Assembly: GCA_964036045.1 (NCBI GenBank)
Contig: OZ038381.1
Location: 101,747,367 to 101,811,366 of the forward strand
Source of the DNA: Eutreptiella sp. 'Long Island Sound 2002'
Taxonomy: Eukaryota > Euglenozoa > Euglenophyceae > Eutreptiales > Eutreptiaceae
Length of the DNA stretch: 64,000 bases
Direction: 5' to 3'
A program made the translations under genes and the position numbers. The notes under the pieces are model-generated. The model was not told the DNA's origin. It saw only the letters and a list, made by a program, of their open reading frames with translations, and ran no database searches. Below, piece after piece: positions 12,216 to 19,400 of the stretch. Positions within the stretch are counted from its first letter, which is position 1; each line of letters starts with the position of its first letter.

Positions 12216-12834
12216 CCGGTGCGCTGGGTTGGCGAATTCGGTGGCCCGTGTTGGGCCATGTGGCCCTTGTACCAAGGGTGGTGGAAGGGAGCGATTCGTG
12301 TCTCAACACCCGCCTAGCAAGGACCCCGAGATAACCCGGCACGCCACGCCGATGTGCCACCCCCGGCCACGACCATCAAAGGGACGTCCTGGGAGACAAA
12401 GGCCTTCACGTCGTGCAAACCAGTGACTGTGGCGGTTAGGCACAGGCCCCAAGGGGTCAGAATGACCCCTATGGAGGTGATCGCGGTGATCACCCCCAAC
12501 CGTTAGGCCGAGCGTAGAGCGTCTAGCACCTTCTCCGAGAGTGCTGTAGCAGCTTGCAGCAAGGCCGCGTTGCCGGCTACCATCCAACTGTCACGTAAGC
12601 GCTGGTGCGCCGCTATCTACCCCTTTTGGATGGTCAACAACATAGGGGAGTCCCAAAAGGAGTTGGGTTCCCCGGGGAATGACAAAGCAGTGGCTTGGCT
12701 CATGATGTCTTCTCTGGGTCCTGCAAAGACGGGGGTACCCCAGTGCTTTGCACGCCGCCGTGCCACGGTGGAGGGCGGCAGACCCATGACACGGCGCATC
12801 TAACGGATTGACCAACCTAAAGTTGGGACCTCAA

Positions 12835-12880
12835 ATCACAGAGGACAAAGCACCAAAACAATTCAACAATTCACCTCTGG
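12835..12880 (-). repeat. Split direct repeat B, outer copy
   Basis: This 46-bp sequence is identical to 13285-13330 and forms the 3' terminus of the element on the minus strand. Its ends are complementary (CAGAGG and CCTCTG), so it can fold into a hairpin. Confidence 0.92.
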
Positions 12881-13197
12881 GCAGACAAACGAGTCAGAGT
12901 GTTGCTGGCGACATCATCGCCTGCAAGAGTATCAAAGCAGTACTCGCCAATAGCGCCACAGGCCTTAGTAAGCGCCCTCCAAAGGACCCCGCCGGGCCTA
13001 TGGGACACAACCCTACGCGGACTCACACCGGCGATCAGAATATGTGAAGCAGCATAAATGCAGATCTCAGCCCCAAAAATTATAAACACCTGGCAGAAGT
13101 ATACAGCAGGAATCTCCAACTTGAATCCAATATAACACCAAGTCCCACCATCACCGACGAACACAGTGAGGAGGCGGGCGTGGGGGCGGGTGGCGGG

Positions 13198-13287
13198 AAC
13201 ACAATAAATTTTCAACAAATCTGTACACAAACAGTAGTAGTGATCCCCTGTTCGTAAAGGAAAAGGGGTCATGACAAACAGGGGATC
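13198..13287 (-). repeat. Split direct repeat A, inner copy
   Basis: This 90-bp sequence matches 18557-18646 with about two differences. It contains a perfect 11-bp inverted repeat (GATCCCCTGTT and AACAGGGGATC) around a 23-bp loop, the kind of dyad a tyrosine recombinase could bind. Its last three bases (ATC) are also the first three of the adjoining B repeat. Confidence 0.92.
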
Positions 13288-13330
13288 ACAGAGGACAAAG
13301 CACCAAAACAATTCAACAATTCACCTCTGG
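13285..13330 (-). repeat. Split direct repeat B, inner copy
   Basis: It is identical over 46 bp to the outer copy. It overlaps the inner A copy by ATC, giving the fused B-A junction expected of PAT-type split direct repeats. Confidence 0.92.
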
Positions 13331-13611
13331 TACCCCTCATCCTTGATCCCAACCAGTCACCATACAACCTCACCACACTGAAACCGGTAACCTTCACAAA
13401 TCTACAGCGGGGACAGTGCCAGGCGCCCGCAGCCAACCAGCCACGGCGCCGGCGCCAGCCTCCGTGCGTAATGTCTGTGCACGACGGTCCCAATCCTCAA
13501 GTCCTCACACACAGGTACCATCCCATGGGTCAGAAACATTGCACGGCCTCTGTGCACCGAGACACAGCTTACTGGAACCCATGAAAATCGTATATCCAGA
13601 ATGGCGGTCGC

Positions 13612-14130
13612 TCACAACGCGCGGAACATGAAGCACACTCGCCTAACCAACACCTGCTTCCCTTGGACCCATATATAGGGCAGACGCTGGTCCCTAGTCT
13701 TCGTGTTCGACGAGAGACTCAGGAACAACCTACAACCCCCAACCCTCACGATCCAACGATGGCGGCACAAATGATCCCCGCTCGCGCCTTTAACATTCAC
13801 ATCTCCAGACGGAGTCGTCTCCTGCTCCGCAACCCCGCGCAAACGGTTCGCTAGGTCCTGTGCTGCCAGCTTCAGAACGCCCGGAGCATCATCCTTCGTG
13901 CAAGGCCGCAAGAAGACGAGCCTTGCAGCCAGACCCAGCCAAATCCGCCTCACCGGCCGCCACGCCAGGCGCTTCTCAAGCACAGCTCTGAGGCGTTGTC
14001 GCGCACGGTCCCGTCTTCGCTGCAGCGCCGCCGCCGACCGGCAGTGACAAAATCCTCCGCGCCGTCGGCGGTGGCGTTTCCCTCGTCCAGGCATGGCACA
14101 AGTGCTGAGCATCGCGAACGTGCGAAACAT
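13612..14130 (-). CDS. Basic ORF at the 3' end of the element
   Basis: This ORF of 172 residues lies between the RNase H domain and the inner B repeat. The N-terminal half is extremely Arg-rich (RHRRRRGGFCHCRSAAALQR, then RRDRARQRLRAVLEKRL), and the rest has no motif I recognise. Its place is where PAT/DIRS elements often carry a third ORF. It may instead be 3' untranslated sequence that happens to be open. Confidence 0.4.
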   Translation of the reverse strand: MFRTFAMLSTCAMPGRGKRHRRRRGGFCHCRSAAALQRRRDRARQRLRAVLEKRLAWRPVRRIWLGLAARLVFLRPCTKDDAPGVLKLAAQDLANRLRGVAEQETTPSGDVNVKGASGDHLCRHRWIVRVGGCRLFLSLSSNTKTRDQRLPYIWVQGKQVLVRRVCFMFRAL

Positions 14131-14159
14131 GTGATTTCACGAAACCCAGCAAGTACACC

Positions 14160-15059
14160 TCACAGGACCAACCCACGCACCTGCAACACCTCTTGGGGGT
14201 GCGCCAATAACACCCGCCAGAGTTGAAATGCATGGCTACACGCCCGCTGCATACTACATTGGTAATTAGAATCCAACCTGCTCGGCGGGTTAGCCGGTTG
14301 CAACGCGCCAGGCACCAACCTGACCTCCACAACTAACCCGGTCTGCAGCAGTCTCAAAACCAATGCCCTCAGCAACTTCTGCTGCCTTGACAACCACGTA
14401 GAGGCCCGCAGGGAAAAAAACTGGCAAGCGGACGCCTGCGAATCCGTGACCAACACCACATAACCCCAACCCAGCCGAACGGCCAACCTCACCAACCACA
14501 CCAAGACCCAAAGCTCTGCACTTTGCTGCGTGTGACGTGCAGGGGGAACAACTTGGGAACGGACACCCGACAACCGCGGGACGAACGCCCCCCCCCCTAT
14601 ACCTAATGGCGTCCAAAGCAGCGTCCCCGAACATCACACAATGGCGAACGGTCCACAAATCGGGCGTGGCAGATAGCGCACGAAACACTGCAAGTCGTGC
14701 CGGCGTTGGCGGCTCCCAAGTTTCCATACACCGTACGATGGCAGTACACAGTCCATGTAAAACCTTCAGTGGCGTAGGTCGTTCAAACTCCCCCCACCGG
14801 TCACAACAATAGCTCCCAGCGAGCAGCGGACCCCCCCCTAAACGGGGCCTAAAGTGCCAATGGATGAAGCCCAATGCTTTGGAGAGCAACCGGGAAGAAG
14901 GTCTCGACCGCGTGGCTAACCTAAGCCAAATATTGAACATTTGGAGGAAAGCCCGTGGGTGTGAACGGATCGTGCGCACTCCTAAATTAATGTACTTCCC
15001 TAGGAAAAATATTTCCGTAACCGGGTCCAGTGTACTCTTGCCCGACACAATAAACCCAG
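14160..15059 (-). pseudogene. Pol ORF, 3' part: RT thumb/connection and RNase H
   Basis: Reading starts immediately after the inversion (EAGFIVSGKSTLDP) and continues FFLGKYINLGVRTI and RSHPRAFLQMFN, the typical RT thumb and connection. The RNase H domain shows FGDAAL (Asp), SAELWVL (Glu) and VTDSQAS (Asp). The fourth acidic position is Asn in PANPPSRL, where copy 2 has PADPLSRL. A frameshift falls at a run of ten C residues (14588-14597). It could be biological or a homopolymer sequencing error. The frame is open to 14160. Confidence 0.82.
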
Positions 15060-15484
15060 CCTCCTCATTTTTAATTTAGTTGAGTTTAATGAGAGCTTGC
15101 ATAAGCCGTTGTCTTTCTTGCTGGATGGTTGGGAACAAATCTCCCAGAGGTTGGCAGAATGGCCAGCCGATAGGCCGTTGTTTTGTACACACGTGGATCT
15201 CAAAAATGCTTTTTGGAGTTTTAAGTTGCCTAGACGGCACGAGAGGGCCTTTCGGTTCCGGATGCGTTGGGAGGGGGTGGTGAGGGTGTTTTGTATGTCG
15301 CGGATGCCGTTTGGGTGGAAGCACTCCCCGCTGTTCTGTCAGACGGCGTTGGGGAGGATAGTGCGTCCCCTGGTTCCGGAGGGGTACATCCTGTTCCACT
15401 ACCTGGATGATTTTTTTATCCTGGGGCCGGATCCCGTGCGGTTGCGTGTTGTCACTGCGCGCGTGGTCCGGGCTTTGGAGGAGG
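15060..15484 (+). pseudogene. RT catalytic core (palm), inverted in place
   Basis: This 425-bp segment encodes the RT palm on the plus strand, while all flanking pol sequence is on the minus strand. It contains FCTHVDLKNAFWSF (first catalytic Asp), MPFGWKHSPLFCQ, and the YLDDF box with the two remaining catalytic aspartates. It is bounded by 7-bp inverted repeats, CCTCCTC at 15060-15066 and GAGGAGG at 15478-15484. The segment has no stop codon. Its frame is continuous with the flanking pol frame at both ends if the segment is read in the opposite orientation, and in copy 2 the same core is in the normal orientation. This is an inversion, not a separate gene. Confidence 0.92.
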
Positions 15485-16610
15485 GACACCTTCTCTGTGG
15501 ATTTCGGGATCACAAACGGCCAGCAAGTCGCCCCCATGGGGCAGCCTTCATCCATGATGGAAACAACTCCCTCACGCAGCAACCACTTAACCATGGGCAG
15601 CACCAAAGCCTCCCTAGTAGATGAGCGACTTTCTCTCTCCAAATGAAAATCCGACACCGATGCTTCGAAATCAGGGGGCGCCAACTCACACCACAGATCG
15701 TCGGAAATTGTGTAGCTACCCACTGCCCCCAAACCCCTCTCCACCAATTGTGGGTCAACTTTTCCCACCTGTGGCACCAGGGACGTAGAAAGGTGCCAAA
15801 GAGCCTGCTAGGATCAGCTGTAAATTCCGACAAAGTGCTAAAAGGTATATCCGGTGCGGACCGTAAACGAAAATCCTCACACGTAAGGAACAAACGCAGC
15901 ACAAACAAATGGAGTCGCCGCATGAGCAACAAAACCCCGCAAGACAATGCCCGGTGAAGCCAGGGCAAGAAAGAAAAGAACGCCTGCAAAAAGTGGACAA
16001 ATAACGGAACTGGTTCCGAACGCACATACAAAAGGTCTGCCCTGGTCAGAGGGCGGGGCCCACCATCCGCCAATGTGATCACCGGCAGCGATCCGTGCGC
16101 CGAACTCAGCACTGGGCCACCAACCGACGAGTCAGAGGCAGATGGGGTTTCGCGAGTCACCCCCGCGGGGGGCGAATTTCCAGGCGACCCCCCCCCCACC
16201 CCTGCCGGTCTCTGTTCCGCCGCCCTTACCCTTACACTCCGGCGGGGAACGCACAGCCACTTTGCTGGCAGGCCCGACTGGAGGCCCATCAGGATGCCGC
16301 CTCTTGGAGGCAGGTCGTCGGGTCTTTGCACTACCCAGGCCCACCTGCGCGCTCGTCGCATGAATCCGCTAGACAGATAAGGGACCGCCAAGACCAACGA
16401 CTCGCCGCTTGAACCTCGGTTTCTCAGCGCCGTCGACCTCTGCTGCGCCGCCTCTCGGTGCCTTGCTAGCTCCTTTCGATCGCAGCTTCCTCCTGCCGCT
16501 CCCGACGACCTGAGGCTTGGATCCCGGCGTGAATTGTTGAGGGCGTTCCCCTGGACCAGCGGGCGGACTGGGTCCTGTGGTGATGTTACGGGCACTTGCT
16601 GTGGAGACAT
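15485..16610 (-). pseudogene. Pol ORF, 5' part: linker and RT fingers
   Basis: The frame opened by the ATG at 16610 overlaps the end of ORF1 by 25 bp. It contains a segment (SFLPWLHRALSC, then LHLFVLRLFLTCEDF) that aligns with the equivalent part of copy 2 (SLPWIARKLSC, HMFLEQIFSTAED). Near 15785 the homology moves to another frame (VGKVDPQLVERGLGAVGSYT), so a 1-nt frameshift is present. It then reads FVIPKSTEKVSL, the fingers motif of retroelement RTs. The protein stops matching exactly at 15484, where the inverted segment begins. Confidence 0.8.
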
Positions 16611-18544
16611 CTGAGTCCGAAGACGGGGACGGGGACGGACGAAGAATCCGAGTCAGACCCCACGTCGTCCACTTCCTTCCGATTCGTCGCCACATCCATA
16701 TCAGGAAGAGATAGCACAGGGCCCGCAGGCACCGGGACTGAGATCTCCACCGTCGCCTTCGTGGACTTCCGCTCAGGGCTTGCATACATGGGGTCACCCC
16801 ACAGGGCGGCCAACAGCACAGCCAAACGCTCATCAAAAGCCTGGCCACCAACAGGCCATGGAAGCACCAAAGCCCCAACCACCGCAGGGTCAGAGTAGCC
16901 CAAAGCGTACTCCAACGCTGTGGCCAGCCTCTTCCACCGCCCCCACCAGACGAAGTAAGCCACATTGGGGGAGCGGTGGAAGGCGGCCGCAGCGCCCCCC
17001 CGCCGTAGGGAATGCCATCGGTGGCCACTATATGGGGAATCACGGAGGAGGTATGCGAAGATCCTCTCCACTGCCTCAACCCCTCCCCTAACCAATGGTT
17101 GACCTTCAGGGATGCAGCTGGCCTCGGCGTAGCATCTGAGGAATTGGACCCACGACCGTCCCCACTCATAAAGCGGCCGTCGCACTTCCCTGTGGCCACC
17201 AACTTTGGTAGTGACGAACAGGACCACGGAATCACTCTCCAACCCCGCTGGCGTGATGGACACCGCTTCAGAAACTCGCAAGAAGAGGAGCCAGCTGAGG
17301 CTCGCCAATGCTGCCACTGCCTGCTCAACCGGCAAAATTGCTCTGGCCCACAGGAGACAGAGACCCTCCGGCCCTAGGTATGGTTGCCCCGGTGTCGGTT
17401 TTCCAGACTTCGCAATCCTCCAGTGGATGGCCTGAACACAACCCGGGAGTAGTCTGACATCTTCTGCCGCCCGAGCCGCGGACACATACCCCCTGAGGGT
17501 GGATCTGGCCTGTCCCATGGAGACCCTTGACGCCAAGAATTCAGACAGCGTGTCAGTAAGCGGCGTCCGCAACGCTCTGGTACCCTCAAACTTCGCCACC
17601 GCGGACAGAGCGGAACGGTATCTCGATTGCGTCTTGGAGGCCCAACCACGAACGCCCACGGCCGCCACCCGAAACGATCCAACAGCCGCCATCGCCATTG
17701 CCCACCCCGCCGCCGCCGCGCTGAAGGTCGCTCTGGCGGCAGGTGAGGCCTCTTGGGTGGGGGTGGGACGCGTGGACCGGGAATCCTCACACCAACAGGG
17801 CCAACCCCACCCCGCCTTGCCGCAGTGGCGGCAGTCCCGTCGGGACCAGTGGGGACATTGGAAATGCCAGTGTCCCAACTGGTCCGATGGGACGCCCTCT
17901 TTTGCGCATCTCTGGCAGTCACCAGACGGACGGGCTGAGATTGGTACCCACCTTCCTTTCTTCGACATCCAATGAAGGACGCCTTGTCTCATGGCGAGGT
18001 CGATGCCTTTATACTTACAGGACGGTCCTCCGTTTTTGACCGCATCTGGCCAGCTCATCGCATCCAGCGGGTTGGACGGGTCCGCTCGACTGTTGGAGTC
18101 CGACGTGAACCTCTGGGCGTACGCCTGCTGGGAGTCGAGGATGATACCCCGAATCCTGTAGGCCAGCCTGTCGCCCCTCGGGCATTCCATCGCATTGCCC
18201 ATCACGTCTGATGGCCTGACCGGGGCAGCACACGCGCTTCTAACGTAGTCCCGCAGCGCCTCGCCCGACTGGCGCATCCAGCTGGCCACTTTGTCGCCCC
18301 CCAGCAGTTGCTCCACTGCCTCCGTGGTCAGGTCCGGCACCGTATTTCTCTCCGCGACGGCCAGGCTCTCCAACCGAGCTTGTAGATGTCCGATCGCCTC
18401 TTGCTGAGACTGCAGCAACGCGCGCAGCTCCTCAGGCGACATCTGGCTGGTGTCTAGCGCCGACGCGTCCGCCCCAGAGCCCGAAGCTCCTTGATCTGGG
18501 GCCTTAGACGACGCACTCTTAAACGGGGAGCGGAAGACCTGCAT
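16586..18544 (-). CDS. Gag-like / tyrosine recombinase fusion protein (ORF1)
   Basis: This is a 652-residue uninterrupted ORF. Residues ~36-67 form a predicted coiled coil (EELRALLQSQQEAIGHLQAR). Residues ~210-252 are Cys/His-rich (C210, C213, H225, H227, C230, C238, H240, C241, C250, C252), as in a nucleic-acid-binding gag domain. From ~300 on it resembles a DIRS-type tyrosine recombinase: a SAM-like core-binding region (300-375), the box I arginine in FLRVSEAVSI (R423) and the box II HSLRRGGAA (H511, R514). The nucleophile is probably Tyr546 or Tyr550 in LEYALGYSD. The C-terminus is Ser/Asp-rich. The enzyme would insert the circular cDNA. The stop codon lies within the first codons of the downstream pol ORF (ATG at 16610), so pol may be made by reinitiation or frameshifting. 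Confidence 0.85.
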   Translation of the reverse strand: MQVFRSPFKSASSKAPDQGASGSGADASALDTSQMSPEELRALLQSQQEAIGHLQARLESLAVAERNTVPDLTTEAVEQLLGGDKVASWMRQSGEALRDYVRSACAAPVRPSDVMGNAMECPRGDRLAYRIRGIILDSQQAYAQRFTSDSNSRADPSNPLDAMSWPDAVKNGGPSCKYKGIDLAMRQGVLHWMSKKGRWVPISARPSGDCQRCAKEGVPSDQLGHWHFQCPHWSRRDCRHCGKAGWGWPCWCEDSRSTRPTPTQEASPAARATFSAAAAGWAMAMAAVGSFRVAAVGVRGWASKTQSRYRSALSAVAKFEGTRALRTPLTDTLSEFLASRVSMGQARSTLRGYVSAARAAEDVRLLPGCVQAIHWRIAKSGKPTPGQPYLGPEGLCLLWARAILPVEQAVAALASLSWLLFLRVSEAVSITPAGLESDSVVLFVTTKVGGHREVRRPLYEWGRSWVQFLRCYAEASCIPEGQPLVRGGVEAVERIFAYLLRDSPYSGHRWHSLRRGGAAAAFHRSPNVAYFVWWGRWKRLATALEYALGYSDPAVVGALVLPWPVGGQAFDERLAVLLAALWGDPMYASPERKSTKATVEISVPVPAGPVLSLPDMDVATNRKEVDDVGSDSDSSSVPVPVFGLRCLHSKCP

Positions 18545-18556
18545 GCTGCTTCACAC

Positions 18557-18646
18557 AACACAATAAATTTTCAACAAATCTGTACACAAACTGTAGTAGT
18601 GATCCCCTGTTCGTAAACGAAAAGGGGTCATGACAAACAGGGGATC
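18557..18646 (-). repeat. Split direct repeat A, outer copy
   Basis: This is the 5' terminus of the element on the minus strand, starting 13 bp upstream of the gag-recombinase ATG. It carries the same internal 11-bp inverted repeat as the inner copy, so it probably also holds the promoter or 5' leader. Confidence 0.92.
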
Positions 18647-19400
18647 GCATGTCCTCCAGATCCTAGGGCTGGGAGTCACCCATAGAGGGTTGACAGCCCA
18701 ACACCCGAGGGTGATGGTTCCCCCGCACGGACCTTGGGGCCCAAGCTTACGGTCGGAGACCCGGTGCCCGGCAACCCAAGCAATCCCCATAGCGTAGTAG
18801 GTCGGCGGACCCGTGACATCTAACGTCTCATGTGTGGGCGTCCCAATACCGCCTGCCCCCCGTCGCCCTGTGGTCACCGTTCCATCGGAAGGATGCGGTC
18901 GGGGGTGTGCCCGTGTCGAACCGTGGGTTCGGGGGGGGGGGGGGGTGCTCTGCGGTTGAGTACCGTGATGCCCGGAGCCTGCAAAGGGGGGGCTGTTGTG
19001 TGCACACTTCGTTGGGGTGTATACATCCGATATACCGGTGGTCCATTTGAGCCCGCTCCCTAAGAATGGACGGTTACCATAGCTAGCCGGCCTTTCCCCA
19101 CACCGGGGTCCGGTAAGCTGTGGGTCAACGGCGAGCCCTTGTAGGGCCAGCACGTCTGTTGTTGACCGTGATGGACGGTGTGCCCTACCCGCAGCTCCTC
19201 TAAAGACACGGACCGCGGTACCTGCCCTAGAGTGTGCTGTGTGTCAGGCCCATAGGCCACCTCTCCGGGGCTGTGCCACCGTGCGCCTCTGGCCAACAAA
19301 CCCAAGCGTAGACTACTTTGTTGCCGAGGCTCAAATAGGGCCGAACCGGACCCCCGGGGGGGGGGGGGGGACTCCTCGCACCTTATACTTAGCCGTAGCC
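18647..19400. other. Flank of the DIRS-like insertion
   Basis: This is the continuation of the pre-insertion DNA to the right of the element. It has G runs near 18930 and 19352. No ORF here is convincing. The DNA left of the insertion holds the start of the decayed gene (12.8-8.96 kb), so this stretch may be that gene's upstream region. Confidence 0.5.

Follow-up and report, generated by a model that had tools for sequence, protein, structure and literature searches.

A reverse transcriptase core inverted in place in a broken tyrosine-recombinase retrotransposon copy from Eutreptiella

The window analysed here, a stretch of 64,000 nucleotides from Eutreptiella sp. 'Long Island Sound 2002' (G000:C4:101747367-101811366, in an assembly of 2.28 Gb and 2205 contigs), contains a copy of a multicopy tyrosine-recombinase (YR) retrotransposon in which a 425-bp block with the catalytic core of the reverse transcriptase (RT) reads against the rest of the pol gene. 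We consider it highly probable that this block was turned by a rare, one-off, microhomology-mediated inversion in place, in a decaying copy whose pol is broken outside the block as well.

Results and discussion

Orientation of the RT core block

The inverted block spans 15060-15484 on the plus strand and carries the catalytic boxes HVDLKNAF and YLDDF. Pfam matched it to RVT_1 on that strand with an E value of 4.8e-13. The pol pieces beside the block and the YR open reading frame lie on the minus strand, opposite to it. The GC and AT skews of the block are +0.23 and -0.31, respectively, while those of the four adjoining 425-bp pieces range from -0.07 to -0.24 and from +0.20 to +0.33, so that both signs are opposite to those of its neighbours.

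When we searched the genome with a 701-bp query over the block, 118 matching pieces were returned, and 40 of the 210 first-look candidates were scored, namely the window copy and 39 others. All 39 others carry the block in the normal order relative to both flanks. Twenty relatives of 7-7.5 kb each (L009-L028), all drawn from these 39 copies, were fetched, and the block reads with its flanks in every one of them. In L012, a single open frame of 466 codons runs on one strand from the part upstream of the RT core, through the core, into the beginning of the part downstream. Since the relatives show the normal order, the window copy represents the derived state.

Junction patterns were then compared over the whole genome. 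Each of the two flipped junctions has one match in the 2.28-Gb genome at up to three mismatches, which is the window itself in both cases, while the unflipped left and right patterns have 57 and 64 matches, respectively. Paired, these matches define 55 loci where both ends are present, besides 2 that have the left end only and 9 that have the right end only, as counted with patterns that would miss more diverged copies of the family. The two ends are strand-concordant at 54 of the 55 paired loci, and the exception (L029) is flipped at other edges. No second copy flipped at the block edges of the window was found, either among the scored copies or in the genome junction search at up to three mismatches.

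The sequence-only reading had described an RT core inverted within a minus-strand pol between CCTCCTC (15060-15066) and GAGGAGG (15478-15484). Both words are present at these positions, and strand, skew, the 39 scored and the 20 fetched relatives agree on the inversion. It had also noted a second element at 55.4-57 kb with the core in the usual orientation, and there the RT is indeed in normal order and in the frame of its flanks. The family search with comparison of orientation and junctions that it proposed has been run, and leaves the window copy as the only one found flipped at these edges.

Junction sequences and the 3-bp gain

The left edge, CCTCCTC, is found in all 20 fetched relatives, where it is followed by C in 19 and by T in one (L024). 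At the right edge, the fetched relatives have TGAGG directly followed by GACACC, with TGAGC in L023. The inverted repeat at the edges of the unflipped block is therefore CCTC/GAGG in 19 of the 20 copies, with GAGC in the remaining one. The distance from flank to flank is 422 bp in 18 of the 20 relatives, 423 bp in L013 and 425 bp in L022. The window copy has 425 bp and the right edge GAGGAGG, which corresponds to a gain of 3 bp over the 18 relatives.

Comparison of the junctions with their unflipped parents revealed an overlap of one CCTC with both parents in each case, namely the second CCTC at the left junction of the window copy and the first CCTC at its right junction. This difference in CCTC register between the two junctions accounts for the 3-bp gain. 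By our own count, GAGG is the edge word in 46 of the 64 right-junction matches, and AAGG or GAGC accounts for most of the other 18; L030, which is the nearest copy, is unflipped and has an exact match to a single GAGG right edge. At up to three mismatches, the genome gave no match to an unflipped right junction that has GAGGAGG. Since the relatives have GAGG and unflipped GAGGAGG has no match, the 7-bp repeat appears to have been made by the event, and the perfect 7-bp inverted repeat is most simply read as its product. The earlier description of the block as inverted between 7-bp repeats thus needs correction, as the right edge has a single GAGG in 19 of the 20 fetched relatives and GAGC in one, and the longer form is not ancestral.

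We also considered whether 7-bp inverted repeats are special in themselves, and discarded the idea, as the element holds 1329 such pairs, 385 of them spaced 100-1000 bp apart.

Origin of the flipped DNA

A further copy, L030 (C20 4.80 Mb), was fetched in addition to L009-L028. L030 is the nearest copy to the core of the window, with 7 differences in 401 positions, where the next best copy has 10. It shows 3 differences in 340 positions of the near left flank, level with L012, and none in 116 positions of the near right flank. Of the 20 copies L009-L028, the one closest to the window copy in either flank is L012, at 2.34% and 2.70% divergence; its core differs by 2.68%, against 2.43% for the best copies. 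Since one copy is nearest, or level with the nearest, in both the block and its flanks, it was, judged by these data, the window copy's own DNA that was flipped.

A foreign patch from another copy was considered, because among the 40 scored candidates C6 30.06 Mb matched the core best but C20 4.80 Mb the flanks, which at first looked discordant. The lower initial core score of L030 was caused by its own 10-bp deletion; with this deletion set aside L030 is nearest in the core too, and the foreign patch was rejected. At only one site in the core does the window allele recur in 1-4 of the 20 copies. A second haplotype or a duplicated locus in the assembly was rejected as well, as the flank at 12300-12830 has one place of 100% identity and a next best of 75% among the 40 of 145 candidates that were scored.

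Private substitutions number 6 in 411 positions of the core, 21 in 2224 of the left flank and 41 in 3164 of the right flank, and the core does not differ from both flanks together (62 in 5388; Fisher p 0.48). Judged by these comparisons, the flipped DNA is native and not hypermutated. The same count bears on the age of the event, which had been called recent on the ground that the block has gained no stop. This does not follow, since six substitutions rarely make a stop (by our estimate, well under one is expected), and a block without a stop says little on age.

Architecture and state of the element copy

The element copy occupies 12835-18649 on the minus strand. It was recognised by its split direct repeats, and alignments of 20 relatives cover it in whole or in part. 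Both these repeats and the RT agree with a YR retrotransposon of the DIRS order. Read on the minus strand, its order is A1 - gag-like/YR - RT - RNase H-like - B1A2 - B2. The 5' end is formed by repeat A1 (18557-18649), which has 97% identity to A2 (13198-13290), and the 3' end by B2 (12835-12880), which has 100% identity to B1 (13285-13330); all four read on the minus strand. ORF1 (16586-18550, minus strand) is an open frame of 654 amino acids with a Cys-rich gag-like part and a likely tyrosine recombinase. The motifs HSLRRG ... LEYAL and HxLR were recognised in it by eye, and Pfam gave a weak match to Phage_int_SAM_1 (16.3 bits, under the cut-off of 22.3). The form of the element ends also supports the likely identity of ORF1 as a YR.

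The B repeat typically ends in TGTGAT, and the A repeat continues with CCCCTG. In the nine copies whose outer A1 end could be read here (the window copy and eight fetched ones), CCCCTG is preceded by six bases that are different in every copy. A YR that integrates a circle whose spacer does not match would be expected to leave such variable bases, and these may be the visible integration footprint of the enzyme. The A repeat begins, right at the YR crossover, with a hairpin of 16 bp (z -4.18, folded for A2). A 9-mer of the crossover (TGTGATCCC) recurs on the minus strand at 15506-15514, outside the block, in the FVIPKS part of the RT.

In the window copy, pol extends from about 16652 to 14160 on the minus strand. 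Upstream of the RT core (15485-16652, minus strand), it was traced by tblastn pieces in frames -1, -2 and -1, with one stop and two frame changes. Downstream of the core (14160-15059, minus strand), the end of the RT and an RNase H-like region follow from open reading frames and from continuity with L012. The RNase H-like region was read by eye, and Pfam gave no match for this part of pol, while RVT_1 was matched in both the window block and L012. Since pol is also damaged outside the block, the flip is not the sole damage in this copy. Such decay is shared by relatives: when compared with the 466-residue frame of L012, which is part of pol, stops or frame breaks occur in 17 of the 20 relatives, and only three, including L012 itself, give a single stop-free piece. 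A scan of the window with Rfam gave no match. The DNA next to the insertion (12300-12830) is a dispersed repeat, present in many places at 66-78% identity.

A second inversion in the family

L029 (C20 6.27 Mb), which lies outside the 40 candidates scored for block orientation, carries a different inversion of 408 bp at its positions 2095-2502 (G000:C20, about 6271094-6271501). This flip covers the window-equivalent stretches 15063-15276 and 15481-15678, and thus overlaps the same RT region. In unflipped copies its edges have a 6-bp inverted repeat, CCCCCT/AGGGGG. One junction of L029 is clean with a 6-bp overlap, while at the other 20 bp were lost and there is no microhomology. The family total is therefore two different inversions in about 67 loci, both at short inverted repeats, one with a small gain and the other with a small loss. 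The separate breakpoints, the short repeats and the small gain or loss point to errors of repair or replication rather than a site-specific system.

A scan for others gave no flip besides L029 in the right part of the element (15485-18649; 40 of 463 candidates scored) and no flipped copy at 13300-15059 (40 of 222 candidates scored). In the 20 fetched copies, 10 of which have uncovered stretches, there was no further inversion apart from one weak match: at 17834-17893, a 61-bp opposite-strand match (77-79%) is seen in 3 of the 20, perhaps a local palindrome. A separate observation concerns L016, L018, L019, L026 and L027, which are near-identical and have in common an insertion of about 0.8-0.9 kb at window-equivalent 15959. 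They lie at G000:C12 23.92-24.19 Mb and on C1000, the four on C12 being 74-108 kb apart, and the C12 cluster looks like segmental duplication rather than transposition.

Two inversions in about 67 loci are more than we would have guessed for a rare process. It could be supposed that the family, or its reverse-transcription or YR intermediates, is prone to short in-place inversions as a regular route to loss of the RT, and we regard this as improbable. The clustering of the two flips was considered and found not convincing, as by our estimate two flips of about 415 bp would overlap by chance about once in six.

Proposed mechanism of the inversion

We suggest that a normal copy of the retrotransposon had about 422 bp of its pol flipped in place, once. 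The copy may have been altered by a polymerase that, during repair or replication, changed strands at a CCTC microhomology of 4 bp and returned at another one. Alternatively, two breaks may have been rejoined, with the left end staggered and then filled in, as in the staggered-break route of inversion. In either case, the tandem CCTCCTC of the left edge would allow the two junctions to form in different registers, which would leave three bases over and create the perfect 7-bp inverted repeat. The repair route and the timing, before or after insertion, are the parts of this explanation that we infer. The breakpoints are non-recurrent, as each flipped junction occurs once in the genome and L029 has different ones. 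A counterpoint is that no microhomology is seen at the L029 junction where 20 bp were lost.

Comparable events have been described at a smaller scale. The human and chimpanzee microinversions treated in the relevant sections of PMC8755829 are 17-33 bp long and lie at short inverted repeats, with flanking repeats of 3 nt in 11% and of 4-8 nt in 50%, and template switching or microhomology-mediated break-induced replication is invoked there. The window flip resembles these in being in place with short inverted repeats at its edges (3-8 bp are common in that set), but it differs in its length of about 422 bp and in the 3 bp gained as an imperfect repeat became perfect. Template switching, according to the same sections, turns imperfect repeats into perfect ones, and although the authors took this as an argument against it in their own cases, such a change is seen in the window copy. 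Strand-switch fragments reach up to 128 bp, and 65% of events lengthen the sequence, in the part of PMC7954356 that reports them. Since 422 bp exceeds both the 17-33 bp and the 128 bp of these papers, end joining of two breaks is an equally good fit. A literature search on internal or small inversions in retrotransposons found no report.

Alternative explanations

The sequence-only reading had offered three causes, a rare repair inversion, an assembly artefact and an invertible switch. The first fits best, the second is unlikely and the third fails those tests that could be run.

If the assembly were wrong, the true chromosome would carry the block in normal order. An error of this kind might be expected where a genome is large and a family has many copies, and might show as a flip at these edges in a single copy, but several observations make it very unlikely. 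First, block and flanks have a common nearest relative and similar private divergence. Second, junctions with 4-bp microhomology and a 3-bp gain are a mutational signature, and the overlap is too short for an assembler to join. Third, L029 carries an inversion of its own with a 20-bp loss. Finally, the window has no N, and the protein library places window ORF P0022 on a contig of 2,398,271 bases, which suggests long reads.

We give a similarly low probability to a flip during reverse transcription, in which strand transfer onto a cDNA of opposite sense would have produced an element inserted already flipped. A single flipped copy without flipped relatives is compatible with this, and two flips in one family speak for it. 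However, nothing points to it specifically, both inversions resemble ordinary microhomology events, and in a single copy it would look the same as repair after insertion.

Extremely improbable, in our judgement, is a site-specific switch in which the YR of the element flips the RT core between inverted repeats and so silences and restores the element: although a likely YR is encoded, the block edges now are perfect inverted repeats, the frame would be continuous with the block turned, and the 9-mer of the YR junction noted above recurs near the right edge, the 7-bp right edge is missing in all 20 unflipped relatives and has no unflipped match in the genome (up to three mismatches), the exchange was not conservative (3 bp were gained, from the 422 bp of 18 of the 20 relatives to 425 bp), one copy only was found flipped at these edges, pol is broken outside the block too, the breakpoints of L029 differ, and the YR crossover, where TGTGAT adjoins CCCCTG, lies at the element ends, away from the block edges. 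When we looked for six crossover words at the block edges, the left edge region had none and the right one had only ATCACA, which lies outside the block. The tyrosine-recombinase switch of the sequence-only reading is thus not supported; one fixed orientation in all individuals, together with no other family member inverted at the same repeats, had been named there as evidence against it, and among the family members no copy besides that of the window was found inverted at them.

Comparison with known YR retrotransposons

In the VIPER map, the YR is located upstream of the RT. The part of PMC6681497 on element structure reports VIPER with split direct repeats of the form A1 ... B1-A2-B2, and the window element has the same VIPER/Ngaro-type arrangement, together with an order of gag-like, YR and RT/RH frames like the one that this part of the paper lists. 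The window element thus resembles VIPER by its repeats, and the likeness is one of layout.

According to the portion of PMC4157794 that treats them, Kangaroo of Volvox and a PAT element of Daphnia pulex have an inverted YR domain. The likeness with the window copy is that a coding module reads against the rest of a YR retrotransposon. In those elements, however, the inverted YR is a feature of the element type, as far as that portion goes, whereas in the window element the inversion affects part of the RT, in a single broken copy, and the YR has its normal order. The YR frame of the window element and the pol flanks share one strand, unlike the inverted YR of Kangaroo. Pfam found no match to the methyltransferase domain of PAT and Kangaroo elements in the ORFs tested, in a search that gave none for the RNase H-like part either.

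Implications

The best reading of the window flip is an ordinary one-off mutation in a broken copy. Some 66 related loci let the unflipped edge be read, and the event is therefore readable base by base. Where a flipped block is bounded by short, perfect inverted repeats, caution is called for before an invertible switch is inferred. Relatives of the window element, with its likely YR upstream of the RT, may be useful in placing VIPER-like elements. The finding of a second inversion in this family is notable as well, and if the two inversions reflect a real tendency, the frequency with which flips disable YR retrotransposons could be measured in it.
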